A stretch of 20,718 nucleotides of DNA from positions 1 to 20,718 of IMG/VR virus record IMGVR_UViG_3300031987_000006. One strand, given 5' to 3'. The translations under genes were made by a program, and so were the position numbers. Origin of the DNA: a virus. Under the pieces are notes generated by a model, which searched no databases, was not told where the DNA came from, and worked only from the letters and a program-made list of their open reading frames with translations. This document shows positions 3,121 to 8,059 of this stretch, piece after piece (the first letter of the stretch is position 1; each line of letters opens with the position of its first letter).

Positions 3121-4154
3121 CAGGCGTCCTCCTCTTGCTCGGGCTCCGGTTGGGCCTGCAAATCAAAGCTGCTCGGCGGGGCTACGCGGATCTCCGCGCG
3201 CTCGCCTTGTTCGTCCAGGATCAGCTGCACCTCAGTGATCAGCCACTCCACGCCATCCAGCTCCAGCCATGGGTCATACACCGGCACCAGGTAACCAGGC
3301 CGCCAAACGCCTTCAGCATGCCGCCAGCCGGCCACGGTGTAGGTCACACCCCGGGATTCACCCCAGCGGCGGCGCACTTCCCATTCGGCGCGCTGCTTGC
3401 ACGAACTGCGGTCCACGCCGGTGTCACACAGCACCAGCGTGGGGCGGTACCGGCCAACGGCCTTATCCTTGGCGCGGCCTTCCGGCTCGCTGGCTGTCTC
3501 GCCCCACACCTCGTCACTGGCCACGCTCTGGCCCTGGACGATCACATCACTGAAGCGGTCCCGGTCGCTGAAACGGCCGCTGGCCCGGCGGATGTTCTCA
3601 CCCAGCACCAGGGCGGTGGTCAGGCGGCCACGTGGCGGGCGGGTGATCACCAGCCGGCCCCGGGCATCGGCAACCAGGATCAGGGCGCGGTAACTGGCGA
3701 TCTGCGCCAGCGCCTCGCCGTAGGTCTGGCCGGGCTCAATTTCCAGGTTTCGGATTGGTGCGCCCACATCCACCTCGGCAACCACTTCAACGCCGAACGG
3801 CCGTGCCAACTGGCGGGCCACCTGCGTTACGGTGCGGGATGTTTCGATGGGCTGGGCGGTACCGGAGCAATCCACCAGGTCCGCCGTTTTGGAGCGGCCG
3901 TTGACCACCAGCTCGTGGCCCTTCGCGTCATAGTCCGGCAACACGTCGTCGATATGGCCAGTAATAACGGGCTCACCATCAATCTCCAGTGAAAACGGCT
4001 CGCTGGTACGAATCGGCCGGCGCTTGGCCTTGCCCCATTTTTCGGTAACGCTGACCTCAAATTTGTCCGCCATTTGCCGCAGACCCAGGCGAACGGTCGC
4101 AGTCTTCCAGCCGCCGTGGCGCTGGCCATCGGTGCGCAGAATCAGCTCACTCAC
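3117..4154 (-). CDS. P: Baseplate hub protein P (Mu gp44)
   Basis: This 345-aa protein is the Mu gp44/P hub, related to P2 gpD and T4 gp27. The N-terminal segment (LILRTDGQRHGGWKTATVRLGLRQMADKFEVSVTEKW) is the conserved start of the first barrel. A later stretch with PGQTYGEALAQIASYRALILVADARGRLVITRP is typical of the hub family. The start is a GTG at 4154 behind GGAGGTGCTGA; the coding sequences of gp43 and gp44 overlap by 8 nt. In Mu a late promoter (P_P) lies upstream of this gene, so an equivalent could sit inside the 3' end of the gp43 gene here, but I see no convincing box. The protein forms the trimeric hub that holds the gp45 spike and links it to the tube. Confidence 0.92.
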   Translation of the reverse strand: MSELILRTDGQRHGGWKTATVRLGLRQMADKFEVSVTEKWGKAKRRPIRTSEPFSLEIDGEPVITGHIDDVLPDYDAKGHELVVNGRSKTADLVDCSGTAQPIETSRTVTQVARQLARPFGVEVVAEVDVGAPIRNLEIEPGQTYGEALAQIASYRALILVADARGRLVITRPPRGRLTTALVLGENIRRASGRFSDRDRFSDVIVQGQSVASDEVWGETASEPEGRAKDKAVGRYRPTLVLCDTGVDRSSCKQRAEWEVRRRWGESRGVTYTVAGWRHAEGVWRPGYLVPVYDPWLELDGVEWLITEVQLILDEQGERAEIRVAPPSSFDLQAQPEPEQEEDAW

Positions 4155-5307
4155 TCAGCACCTCCAGCTCTGCGCCACCTGGTACCGCGCCGGGGTGGCG
4201 TACGCGGTTGCGGGTCACAATCTCATCAGCGCGGGTGGCATCGCCATACAGCCGTTGAGCGATTACCAGGGCGGGCATTGCCCGGCGGGTTTCGTACACG
4301 GTCAGCTCTGGCAGCGCGGCGCCTCGCTGGCGCAGGTCATCCACTACGGCCGCGCGCAGGAGCACCAGGCGCTGGGCGGTGTCCGGGTTCAGGGTTTTGG
4401 AAGTCTCCAGCGGCTCGGTCAGCCCCTGGGTGATCTTTTCCATGGTGTCCTGGGCATCCTGCCGGGTGTCGTAATTCCATTGGGCTGAGGCCTTGGCTGC
4501 TGCCACGGCCGCGCCACGGCGGATCAGGTTCACCGCTGCGGTCTGCGCCTGGGCTTGCTGCCGGGCGTCGGCTGGTGCCGCTGCGGATTCAGACTCTGTT
4601 TCACCCGCATCAAACAGGGCTTCGTAGCCGCGCAATGCTCGCAGGGGCTCCTGGAGCTGGTTGGAAATGCCGCTGATGGTGTCGATGATGGCGCCGGCCA
4701 GTTCACCCGGGGTGCGGATAACTCGGGCGATCTTCCCGGTTACGTCACTCACCACGCCCTCGGCATCCTGCAGCGCATTCAGGATGGTCTTCTCCACCTC
4801 GGCCACGCGGTCGGCGGCGAGATCCAGGACGCTGTAATCCTCTTCAAAATCTTCTTTTAGTGCTGTTTCCGCCTCGGCAGCGCGGGCTTCCACTACCTTC
4901 GGGGTATCGGTAACCGAGCGCGGATAGCGGGGCTTGTCATCCGCCCGCAGCACCGTCATGTTCACCCGGGCCATGCCGCCTTCACGGGTGGTTTCGGTGA
5001 TGCGCGGCTCACCAATCATCACCACCTTGTGGGTGCCGTAGTAACTGTGGCGCATCTCAAACGCGCCCGGCAGCTCCAGCGCTTCCGCCAGGCGGTTGCG
5101 CTGCACGTCGTAGTCATCGCCGATCAGGTAGCCGGTGATCTGCCATTCCCGCGCCGCGCGGCCCAGGTCTTCGGCGTAGGGTTCGTCACGCAGCGGGTAT
5201 TCATGCACCTGCACCCGGCGCCCGGGTGAGATGGAGCCGCGTTCCAGGTGCAACACAATGCCCCGGAATTCTGCGGTGCCGTCGCCAATTCGATCTCTCC
5301 AGCTCAT
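4147..5307 (-). CDS. N: Tail/baseplate protein N (Mu gp43, DNA-circularisation N-terminal family)
   Basis: This 386-aa protein starts with the domain named after 'DNA circularisation protein N': MSWRDRIGDGTAEFRGIVL, then GRRVQVHEYPLRDEPYAEDLGRAAREWQITGYLIGDDY and a LELPGAFEMRHSYYG segment (residues 1-95). Despite the family name, it is a tail protein in Mu and related phages. It lies between tube and hub (distal tail/hub adaptor, comparable to T4 gp53 or LysM-bearing adaptors). The middle (about 135-300) is acidic, alanine-rich and probably helical. ATG 5307 has AGGAGC 8 nt upstream. That ribosome-binding site sits in the short gap shared with the divergent plus-strand gene at 5343 rather than in the tape-measure gene, as would be expected if the two tail genes were adjacent. 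Confidence 0.9.
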   Translation of the reverse strand: MSWRDRIGDGTAEFRGIVLHLERGSISPGRRVQVHEYPLRDEPYAEDLGRAAREWQITGYLIGDDYDVQRNRLAEALELPGAFEMRHSYYGTHKVVMIGEPRITETTREGGMARVNMTVLRADDKPRYPRSVTDTPKVVEARAAEAETALKEDFEEDYSVLDLAADRVAEVEKTILNALQDAEGVVSDVTGKIARVIRTPGELAGAIIDTISGISNQLQEPLRALRGYEALFDAGETESESAAAPADARQQAQAQTAAVNLIRRGAAVAAAKASAQWNYDTRQDAQDTMEKITQGLTEPLETSKTLNPDTAQRLVLLRAAVVDDLRQRGAALPELTVYETRRAMPALVIAQRLYGDATRADEIVTRNRVRHPGAVPGGAELEVLSE

Positions 5308-5312
5308 TGGGC

Positions 5313-5340
5313 TATGCTCCTGCAGAAGATGGAGGGAAAG
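5313..5340 (+). promoter_or_regulatory. Start region of the plus-strand cargo gene: RBS and weak promoter candidate
   Basis: A clear Shine-Dalgarno sequence, GGAGGG, lies at 5331-5336, 6 nt before the ATG at 5343. Further upstream TATGCT (5313-5318) matches four of six bases of a sigma-70 -10 box. The best -35 at a 17-nt spacing is TCGATC (5290-5295), a three-of-six match inside the gp43 coding sequence. The ribosome-binding site is solid. The promoter is only a guess, because the divergent gp43 start leaves just 35 nt of noncoding DNA and the real promoter may lie further inside gp43. Confidence 0.35.
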
Positions 5341-5342
5341 TC

Positions 5343-6215
5343 ATGTTGAATAACTGGATTCGAGTGCCGCTTGGAATGGCGGCCGGCCTTTTGGTGTACG
5401 CCCTGGTTTCTCAAGCCGGTGAAGACCGCACCCTGGACATGAAAATCAGCGCCGAGAACGCGACACAGGAAGACATACAGAAGGCCAAGGGCTACCTGGA
5501 CGGCTTTCTGGAATCCTGCCCAACCATCTTTAATGAATTTGAAGACCGCATTGCTGAAGGCCCGGAGATTGAGCTGAAACCCCCCATGCCTTACCGGGAA
5601 GACACTTACGGCTGGCCCCTGGAGGTTGCCGTCAAGCTCGTTGTGAAGGCTGACGGAGGCGTGGCCAGTGGGCACCATCTGCGGTACTTCATGTGGAATG
5701 ACGCCTGGCTTACGGGAAAACACCAAGGTGCTGAGTTCTGCGGCCGAGAAGGAGAACAGGTAAGAGATACTGTGGTTTACACCAAGGGGGAGCCCGCCAG
5801 CAACGCGCCCATCCCCGTTGAAGTCGACGAGGCCGAAAAAGCCAAATCGAAAAAACTCGCAAGTGACCTCGGGCTCAAATACGGGCAGAAGTACAGCTAC
5901 ACCGAGTGGAGACAGGAAACGCTGGAAGGATTCCGCTTCCATGTCCCCGCTATTGGCGACTGCGGTACCTGGACCGAGCCCAAGGACTGCGAGCGGCATG
6001 CCAGTATTGGAGGGGTGGAGACCATTTTCTGCTCTCACGGCGAAGACCGTTATGGTGATTGCGTCACCCCCGGCGATGGCCCCTTCCTGGAAACCTACTA
6101 CCTGACCGAGCATGATGTGACCCTCCTGGCAGAGGAACATCTGACCGATGAGGGAAGCTACTTCAAGCTGCTGCAGCTGGCCCAGGGCCGGAAGCCTGAC
6201 CTCTACAAAAACTAG
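5343..6215 (+). CDS. Unrecognised exported or membrane-anchored protein, likely prophage moron (cargo gene)
   Basis: I do not recognise this 290-aa protein. It is the only gene on the plus strand, lying between the tape-measure and gp43 genes, which are adjacent in Mu. An in-frame ORF extends upstream, but ATG 5343 is the convincing start because of GGAGGG just before it. Residues 1-25 are a signal peptide or anchor: R7, a hydrophobic run at about 8-22, then S-Q-A as a possible signal-peptidase I site after A25. The rest is acidic and soluble, with six cysteines (59, 133, 207, 216, 230, 240), an even number that would suit disulphides in the periplasm. A lysine-rich helix-like stretch lies around 163-173. 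Rough counts give about 55% GC against 60-67% in many neighbours, suggesting separate acquisition. The stop is 2 nt from the convergent tape-measure stop. Position, strand and export suggest lysogenic conversion (for example superinfection exclusion or an envelope trait), but the function is unknown. Confidence 0.8.
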   Translation: MLNNWIRVPLGMAAGLLVYALVSQAGEDRTLDMKISAENATQEDIQKAKGYLDGFLESCPTIFNEFEDRIAEGPEIELKPPMPYREDTYGWPLEVAVKLVVKADGGVASGHHLRYFMWNDAWLTGKHQGAEFCGREGEQVRDTVVYTKGEPASNAPIPVEVDEAEKAKSKKLASDLGLKYGQKYSYTEWRQETLEGFRFHVPAIGDCGTWTEPKDCERHASIGGVETIFCSHGEDRYGDCVTPGDGPFLETYYLTEHDVTLLAEEHLTDEGSYFKLLQLAQGRKPDLYKN

Positions 6216-6217
6216 GG

Positions 6218-8059
6218 TCATGGCCACAACCCCCAGGCACCGGAATCCACATCCAGATCGGGCCCGCCCGGGCCCTTTTCTGGCGTGACACTTCTAACGC
6301 GGCCTTCCTGGTCAACCTGAATTCTAACGGTGCTCTCGCGCTGGTCATTGAAGTTCACCGCCCGCTGGGCCTCATCAAATCCCAGCGCGGCCAGAGCCCT
6401 CGCCACACCTTCCCCAATCGCTTCGCCAATATCGCGGCCGGTCTCGGTACCCAGCGGGCCTTTGTCGGTTAGCAGGTTGTCGCTGATGAGGGTGCCGACA
6501 CCGTAGCCAGCAGCCCCGGCACCGCCAACAGCCAGGCCAGCAGTACCCATGGCCCCAAGGCCTGCGGCGGGAATCATCCGGAGGGAGGGCGCACGGCGCG
6601 CCACCTGCCAGTTGCTAAGACGGTTTACCCGGTGCCTTGGCAAGCCAGCGCGGCTACCACGGCGGCCACCAAAACCACCAGTGCCTGACCCGCCACCGAG
6701 CCCACCACCCGGCATATTCACAACATAGACCGGCTGCACACCGGCCACTTCTTCCAGTGCCTTGCCGGCTGCAACGCCGGCACCCACGCCGCCGAAGCGC
6801 TGTAGCAGCTTGCCGCCACCCTTCACCAGGCCAAACCCGGCAGCACCAACCAGCGCCCCGCCAGCCATTATTTCCTTGCCGCTCAGGTTCTGCTCATCAA
6901 GCAGGTACTTCACGGCGTTTTCAACGGCCTCATTGATCGGCCCTGCGAACTCATCCGCTGCGTTACTGAGGGCATTCTTAAGGCGGGCCACCTGGTCAAC
7001 TGAATTGGAGAGCGCCTCTTCCAGATCTTTGCTAATGGTGCCAGCACTACTAGTGATAACATCCGTCTTGGCCCTGGCAGCTGCAATCGTGCCTTCACTC
7101 AACAGCATACGGAGCCCTTTAATCGTATCCTGATCCGCACCATCGAATGCTTTTGCGAGAGCCGCGTTCTGCTGTTGCTCCGTCTCAAACTGCCGATACT
7201 TTTTGGCGATATCGTCAAAGACATCAAACGCCGCGCGGCGGTCGCCTTCTGCGTTATAGAATCTAACCCCAGTTGTCTCTTGGGCGGCGCTCATATATTT
7301 GGCGTTGTTGAACAGCCGAAGCGTGGAGTCCACCAGGGTCGCCAGGCGCTCGGGTTCCCTTTCAGTCAACGAAAGCTGCTCAATTAAACCCAGGGTATCT
7401 GCAAAACCAAGTCCGGCTGACTTAGCATTCACACCCACACGGGCAAAGATACTGGACAGATCTTCCAGCTCTGCATTGCCCTGGCGTCCGGCCTCGGTCA
7501 TCTGATCAATCAGAGAAATGGCGGTTTTTGGATTGGATAAGTCAAACTTGAACGCCTCACCAGCCACACCAACTGCAGACGCCAACACTTCAGCATTGGC
7601 ACCCGTTACCGCCATGGCCGGGTTAATCGCCATGATGGTGGCCAAAGCCTCTTCCCATGACTGGCCGGCCTGGATAAGGCTGTTGAAGCCGTTCAGAAGG
7701 GAGTTTAAAGACTGGCCGGTTTCCTCGCTCATGCGGTGCAGTTCTTCCCGCAGAATCTGAGACTGCTCAACTGTAGCGCCTGCAGTCTGCCGGATCTGGA
7801 TCAGCTGCTTATCCAGCTTCGCCGACTCAACAGCAACCCGAACCCCCGCATACGCACCAGCAGCGCCGCCGAGCATGGCGGTGTATTTGCCCCCCAGGGA
7901 TTCCAGGGTGCGCCCCAGACCACCAGCAACCCGTTGCAGCCGGCCCATATGGCGGCTGCCATTAGTGGACAGCTGGCGCATGGAGTTTTCATAACGCCTG
8001 GCGTTTTGCTCCAGGTTGCCCCGCAGGTTCATCACCACACTGGCGCGCAATTCACTCAT
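6218..8059 (-). CDS. Tail tape-measure protein (Mu gp42)
   Basis: This 613-aa protein sets tail length and is threaded inside the tail tube. The N-terminal half is helical, with a TP901-type tape-measure segment (KLDKQLIQIRQTAGATVEQ, then SLLNGFNSLIQAGQSWEEAL and NPAMAVTGANAEVLASAVG). Residues about 395-425 (MAGGALVGAAGFGLVKGGG) and about 495-530 are hydrophobic glycine/alanine-rich stretches. Between them is a Gly-rich loop after QPVYVVNMPGGG, a phrase I associate with Mu-like tape measures. At about 0.15 nm per residue the tail would be near 92 nm, similar to Mu. The start shares ATGA with the end of the frameshifted chaperone extension. Parts of the coding sequence around 7000-7800 look less GC-rich than the flanking genes, as is common for mosaic tape measures. 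The end lies 2 nt from the convergent cargo gene. Confidence 0.93.
   Translation of the reverse strand: MSELRASVVMNLRGNLEQNARRYENSMRQLSTNGSRHMGRLQRVAGGLGRTLESLGGKYTAMLGGAAGAYAGVRVAVESAKLDKQLIQIRQTAGATVEQSQILREELHRMSEETGQSLNSLLNGFNSLIQAGQSWEEALATIMAINPAMAVTGANAEVLASAVGVAGEAFKFDLSNPKTAISLIDQMTEAGRQGNAELEDLSSIFARVGVNAKSAGLGFADTLGLIEQLSLTEREPERLATLVDSTLRLFNNAKYMSAAQETTGVRFYNAEGDRRAAFDVFDDIAKKYRQFETEQQQNAALAKAFDGADQDTIKGLRMLLSEGTIAAARAKTDVITSSAGTISKDLEEALSNSVDQVARLKNALSNAADEFAGPINEAVENAVKYLLDEQNLSGKEIMAGGALVGAAGFGLVKGGGKLLQRFGGVGAGVAAGKALEEVAGVQPVYVVNMPGGGLGGGSGTGGFGGRRGSRAGLPRHRVNRLSNWQVARRAPSLRMIPAAGLGAMGTAGLAVGGAGAAGYGVGTLISDNLLTDKGPLGTETGRDIGEAIGEGVARALAALGFDEAQRAVNFNDQRESTVRIQVDQEGRVRSVTPEKGPGGPDLDVDSGAWGLWP

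Follow-up and report, generated by a model that had tools for sequence, protein, structure and literature searches.

A gene on the plus strand of the window (the whole 20,718-nt stretch of viral DNA analysed here) encodes a 290-aa protein of exported type in which two unrelated domains, A and B, are fused. In related Mu-like phages of Halomonadaceae and Alteromonadaceae, each of the two is found as a protein in its own right at the same antisense slot, between the tape measure protein (TMP) gene and a gp43-like DNA-circularisation (DNAC) gene; the A+B fusion was found only in the window and in a 98% relative. We are confident that this cargo gene is a moron, an exchangeable cassette in a fixed antisense slot. 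The cassette is probably expressed in the lysogen, and by analogy with known systems its likeliest job is superinfection exclusion from the periplasm, a reading to which we give about an even chance.

The cargo gene, its coding strand and its signals

The sequence-only reading of this DNA had described a real plus-strand gene between tape measure and gp43, with its own ribosome-binding site, a signal peptide or anchor, six cysteines and a lower GC content than most neighbours, and each of these features was borne out (Table 1). The minus strand carries every head and tail gene of the window, and the remaining plus-strand ORFs read as shadows of minus-strand genes, in agreement with the earlier claim that the cargo is the sole plus-strand gene. 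At 56.9% GC, compared with a mean of 62.7% (sd 2.0) in the 22 other genes, the cargo is the lowest of the genes measured and differs from its neighbours in composition, as morons do. In a rule-based reading, its N-terminus, MLNNWIRVPLGMAAGLLVYALVSQA followed by GEDRT, is a cleavable Sec signal, past which a hydrophobic segment of equal strength is absent; the product would thus reside in the periplasm.

Table 1. Features of the cargo locus in the window
Feature	Position	Strand	Basis
DNAC gene (DNA-circularisation/gp43-like baseplate hub), divergent neighbour	4147..5307	-	DNA_circ_N; PHROG 184
Competing 307-aa ORF, judged non-coding	5304..6227	-	dN/dS mostly about 1-2 across relatives
TGGGCTATGCT, extended -10-like promoter motif (hexamer TATGCT, 5313-5318)	5308..5318	+	Gap before DNAC start
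Shine-Dalgarno-like GGAGGG of cargo	5331..5336	+	Six bases 5' of ATG
Cargo (moron) gene, exported two-domain protein (predicted)	5343..6215	+	ORF, purifying selection in six pairs, same-slot homologues
Predicted Sec signal peptide, residues 1-25, cleavage about VSQA-GE	5343..5417	+	Sequence, hydropathy
Domain A, about residues 26-145, 2 conserved Cys	5418..5777	+	Standalone in L009, L010, L013, L014, L064, L065, L067, L137
Domain B, about residues 161-290, 4 Cys	5823..6212	+	Standalone in L004, L005, L008, L012, L059, L066, L069, phage B23
TMP (tape measure) gene, convergent neighbour	6218..8059	-	PhageMin_Tail; PHROG 973
Intrinsic-terminator-like GGGCCCGCCCGGGCCC-TTTT, inside TMP 3' end	6260..6279	+	Window and L004 only among scanned loci

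The slot is also spanned by the 307-aa ORF on the tail strand, whose start and stop neatly overlap both neighbours (with an ATGA overlap at DNAC), and the plus ORF could in principle be the shadow of this one. Codon evolution rules this out. Between the window and its 98% relative, dN/dS was 0.08 in the plus frame and 1.12 in the opposing open frame, and in five more close pairs it was 0.14-0.19 and 0.47-2.14 (mostly about 1-2), respectively; one near-identical pair (3 differences) was uninformative, and six pairs were informative. GenBank annotation of phages B23 and YPCBV-1 likewise picks the gene antisense to the tail operon, and we give the 307-aa ORF next to no credence.

On the cargo strand, the gap before DNAC reads TGnGCTAnnCTCC. 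Its TGnGCTA motif occurs in 25 of 32 filled slots, in all main cargo classes, and in none of the 45 verified empty slots; its three other hits are at loci that lack upstream DNA. A conserved CTCC in the upstream motif was discounted as promoter evidence, since it is accounted for by the DNAC Shine-Dalgarno, to which it is complementary, and only TGnGCTA was used. A good -35 was not found upstream of the cargo's -10-like motif. The terminator-like site carries little weight because of its narrow distribution among the loci scanned (Table 1). Since late transcription would be antisense to the cargo, expression in the lysogen is the natural reading. The minus strand of YPCBV-1, an isolated Mu-like phage of Chromohalobacter, carries a repressor-like gene and the slot cargo only, and as cargo and repressor share a strand, the cargo is most likely active in the lysogen. 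In B23, besides the cargo, minus-strand genes lie at the two ends only (AVI04917.1, AVI04966.1; 34600-35112, 1-291), and the right-end gene could be another lysogen-expressed cargo.

Domains A and B

The two-domain fusion had been overlooked in the sequence-only reading, as had the other exported or membrane cargo of relatives and the competing antisense ORF. The same reading did not recognise the family, and neither domain matched Pfam, NCBIfam, PHROGs or PDB sequences in our searches. A cytosine deaminase match in the PDB (E 0.05) and a cytochrome c-550 match (E 0.005, beginning in the signal peptide) were taken as chance, and a match of genome G592 to domain B was to a Nudix-like protein and was spurious by inspection. 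The single viral match, A0A2P9JZK1 (E 3e-6, 165 aa), is probably the B23 protein itself, as judged by length only. From sequence, A and B appear to be two families of exported proteins that have no known relatives. We considered whether they were duplicates of one domain and dropped the idea, profile similarity between them being absent.

The cargo's six cysteines are residues 59, 133, 207, 216, 230 and 240. The two in domain A are invariant among homologues; two of those in domain B lie within an insert that is absent from the short form of the domain, and the other two are retained or lost jointly. Cysteines are thus gained and lost by pairs in A and B homologues, which fits periplasmic disulfides in both domains. 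A first structure model of the cargo protein was too poor for use (pLDDT 53). In a second model of moderate quality (pLDDT 73.9), A and B are predicted as alpha/beta domains, and a PDB fold search with this model gave no match at E <= 0.001.

DNA similarity between the window and L004, a locus with domain B only, extends into the signal peptide to about 5392 and resumes from about 5871, where it covers B and the TMP end. As the similarity is present in the signal peptide and again over B, it looks from the alignment as if A had either been gained between signal peptide and B or been lost from L004. Another instance of cargo fusion in the slot is found in L080, in which a two-helix membrane cargo before DNAC (at 2475) is a tandem duplicate in one 119-aa ORF.

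The antisense slot in Mu-like relatives

The locus was found in relatives by searching with the neighbouring DNAC gene, the cargo itself matching no library. The relatives are Mu-like phages and prophages of Vreelandella, Billgrantia and Chromohalobacter (Halomonadaceae) and of an Alteromonadaceae host, and a Mu transposase C domain was present in all four near-complete relatives tested. Their slots hold A, B, the A+B fusion, a predicted two-helix membrane protein of 62-85 aa, or unrelated exported proteins; the last are those of L063 and L098 (179 and 119 aa), which have no family match. B23, of Alteromonadaceae, carries a domain B homologue annotated as hypothetical (AVI04958.1) in the same antisense slot, without domain A and without any of the four B cysteines. 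The YPCBV-1 cargo (UXF57497.1, ORF44), in the same slot and on the same strand, is a predicted two-helix membrane protein of 68 aa in which recognisable homology to A or B is absent. Although the payloads are unrelated, the cargo is always antisense and always predicted to be envelope-directed, and all exported cargo examined has a signal-peptide-like N-terminus by prediction. A description of the slot was not found in the literature at the level of titles and abstracts.

The slot is empty in 45 relatives, in which TMP abuts DNAC within 40 bp. Three of the empty-slot relatives (L068, L070, L071) have about 50% DNAC identity, and TMP abuts DNAC also in eight annotated phages, from Bordetella to Shigella. 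The cargo is therefore a single-gene insertion between otherwise adjacent genes. The sequence-only reading had proposed a moron and a survey of the same locus in related Mu-like phages, and that survey gave presence/absence variation on a syntenic background, which together with allele replacement, the promoter-like motif, low GC and the antisense strand upholds the proposal.

Cargo alleles are swapped cleanly. The flanks of the slot in L012 and L013 match at 94% and 93% identity, and the two phages carry B and A, respectively, the change falling within the cargo ORF only; L008/L009 and L009/L059 display the same replacement, and flanks of these swap pairs are 82-94% identical on both sides. 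Genes of diversifying specificity would be expected to show such clean ORF replacement. Outside this region, L004 and the window share 88-90% identity, and they differ in the cargo and most of TMP. The C-terminal 150 TMP residues track cargo class in the Alteromonadaceae group, with 57-65% identity between classes, 95-99% within A and 81% within B. In these phages (L064, L065, L067 compared with L066, L046) the N-terminal 150 TMP residues are 92-95% identical and the C-terminal 150 are 57-65% identical. In the Halomonadaceae group, the last 150 TMP residues do not track cargo class. Strict co-inheritance of TMP and cargo was rejected as proof of a target, given that several swaps leave TMP unchanged (L008/L009, L012/L013). 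Physical linkage (hitchhiking) suffices to explain the cases of co-variation, and TMP as the cargo's target is only a hypothesis.

Possible roles of the cargo

The conservation of the slot, the unrelated envelope-directed payloads, the swapping of alleles and the presence/absence variation are all in keeping with moron biology. The sites of action of known exclusion proteins are the membrane or the periplasm, and some of these proteins act on TMP (PMC10883804, PMC7677548, PMC3952083). In the exclusion model, the cargo gene would be transcribed in the lysogen from its own promoter, on the repressor strand, and its product would be exported by Sec and fold in the periplasm as two disulfide-stabilised domains. 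The product would then shield the lysogen by keeping the genomes of related phages from entering at the periplasm or inner membrane, in the manner of T4 Spackle, HK97 gp15 or TP-J34 Ltp. A and B might be modules with different specificities, both of which the fusion would combine.

As in the case of HK97 gp15, the cargo is a single small envelope-directed gene of a temperate phage; gp15 exclusion is evaded by HK97 hybrids that carry the tail tube and TMP genes of HK022 (PMC10883804). By description, gp15 is set apart as a predicted inner-membrane protein of a siphophage, whereas the window protein is two-domain and exported. Spackle is periplasmic, with a disulfide and a signal that is removed upon export (PMC7677548), features that are predicted for the window protein; mature Spackle, however, is a helical bundle of 75 aa and an inhibitor of gp5 lysozyme, and A and B are larger and, in the model, alpha/beta. 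Ltp is an exported exclusion protein whose repeat domain interacts with TMP (PMC3952083). It is a lipid-anchored Gram-positive protein, whereas the window protein has no cysteine in its signal region and hence no lipobox. By signal-peptide prediction, the cargo shares the membrane, surface or periplasmic location of these proteins; sequence or fold homology to them was not found (Pfam, PHROG, NCBIfam, PDB; fold E <= 0.001), and we file the cargo outside the gp15/Ltp/Spackle-type exclusion proteins for lack of homology.

Several points stand against exclusion. Other lysogenic-conversion cargo would leave the same pattern; the cargo/TMP co-variation expected if the phage's own TMP were the target fails in L008/L009 and L012/L013; homologues of known function or a PDB fold match were not found; the -35 of the cargo is poor; and the double lysogens number only two. 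More tentatively still, the slot may be a dedicated specificity locus of Mu-like phages, with a single promoter, exclusion proteins of the periplasm or membrane that can be interchanged, and a specificity-stacking A-B fusion. If so, this locus would decide which related phages co-inhabit a host.

The strongest competitor, which we regard as possible and well short of probable, is lysogenic conversion to the benefit of the host, by a periplasmic protein that alters the envelope, the response to stress or salt, or the ability to withstand a toxin or lysozyme from a competitor. The same architecture would be expected, and the hosts reached are halophilic or marine. However, unrelated payloads in one slot and rapid swapping fit phage-phage conflict better, and a search of 275 Halomonadaceae species and about 390 genomes of the order gave no homologue of A or B other than in prophages. 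We think a lysis or antiholin-type regulator improbable: small membrane proteins do occur in the slot and have weak holin PHROG scores, but these are not significant, YPCBV-1 has a separate annotated holin, the cargo is antisense to late transcription, and domains A and B are soluble. More improbable again is an accessory gene for the virion or for tail assembly, inverted by chance. Although the cargo sits inside the tail operon, it is on the strand opposite to the late genes, has a predicted export signal, is missing from most Mu-like relatives and is replaced without change of its neighbours, so that it is not a conserved co-directional member of the tail module. These results agree with the earlier view that nothing in the gene looks like a virion protein, in that a virion homologue was not found, and most distant Mu-like relatives have an empty slot, as they would not in the case of an essential conserved tail gene.

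Morons are usually described singly. The fixed antisense slot can be compared over many phages, with natural swaps on near-identical backgrounds (L012/L013, L008/L009), close empty-slot relatives and double lysogens, by which both the role of the cargo in phage-phage exclusion and its target become testable; the A and B families would be candidate exclusion proteins against contractile Mu-like phages. Two Vreelandella strains (V. subterranea and V. maris QX-1; G001 and G002) each have two related prophages, both Mu-like, of different cargo classes. The cargo pairs are A with short B and B with the membrane class, as expected if like excludes like (n=2).
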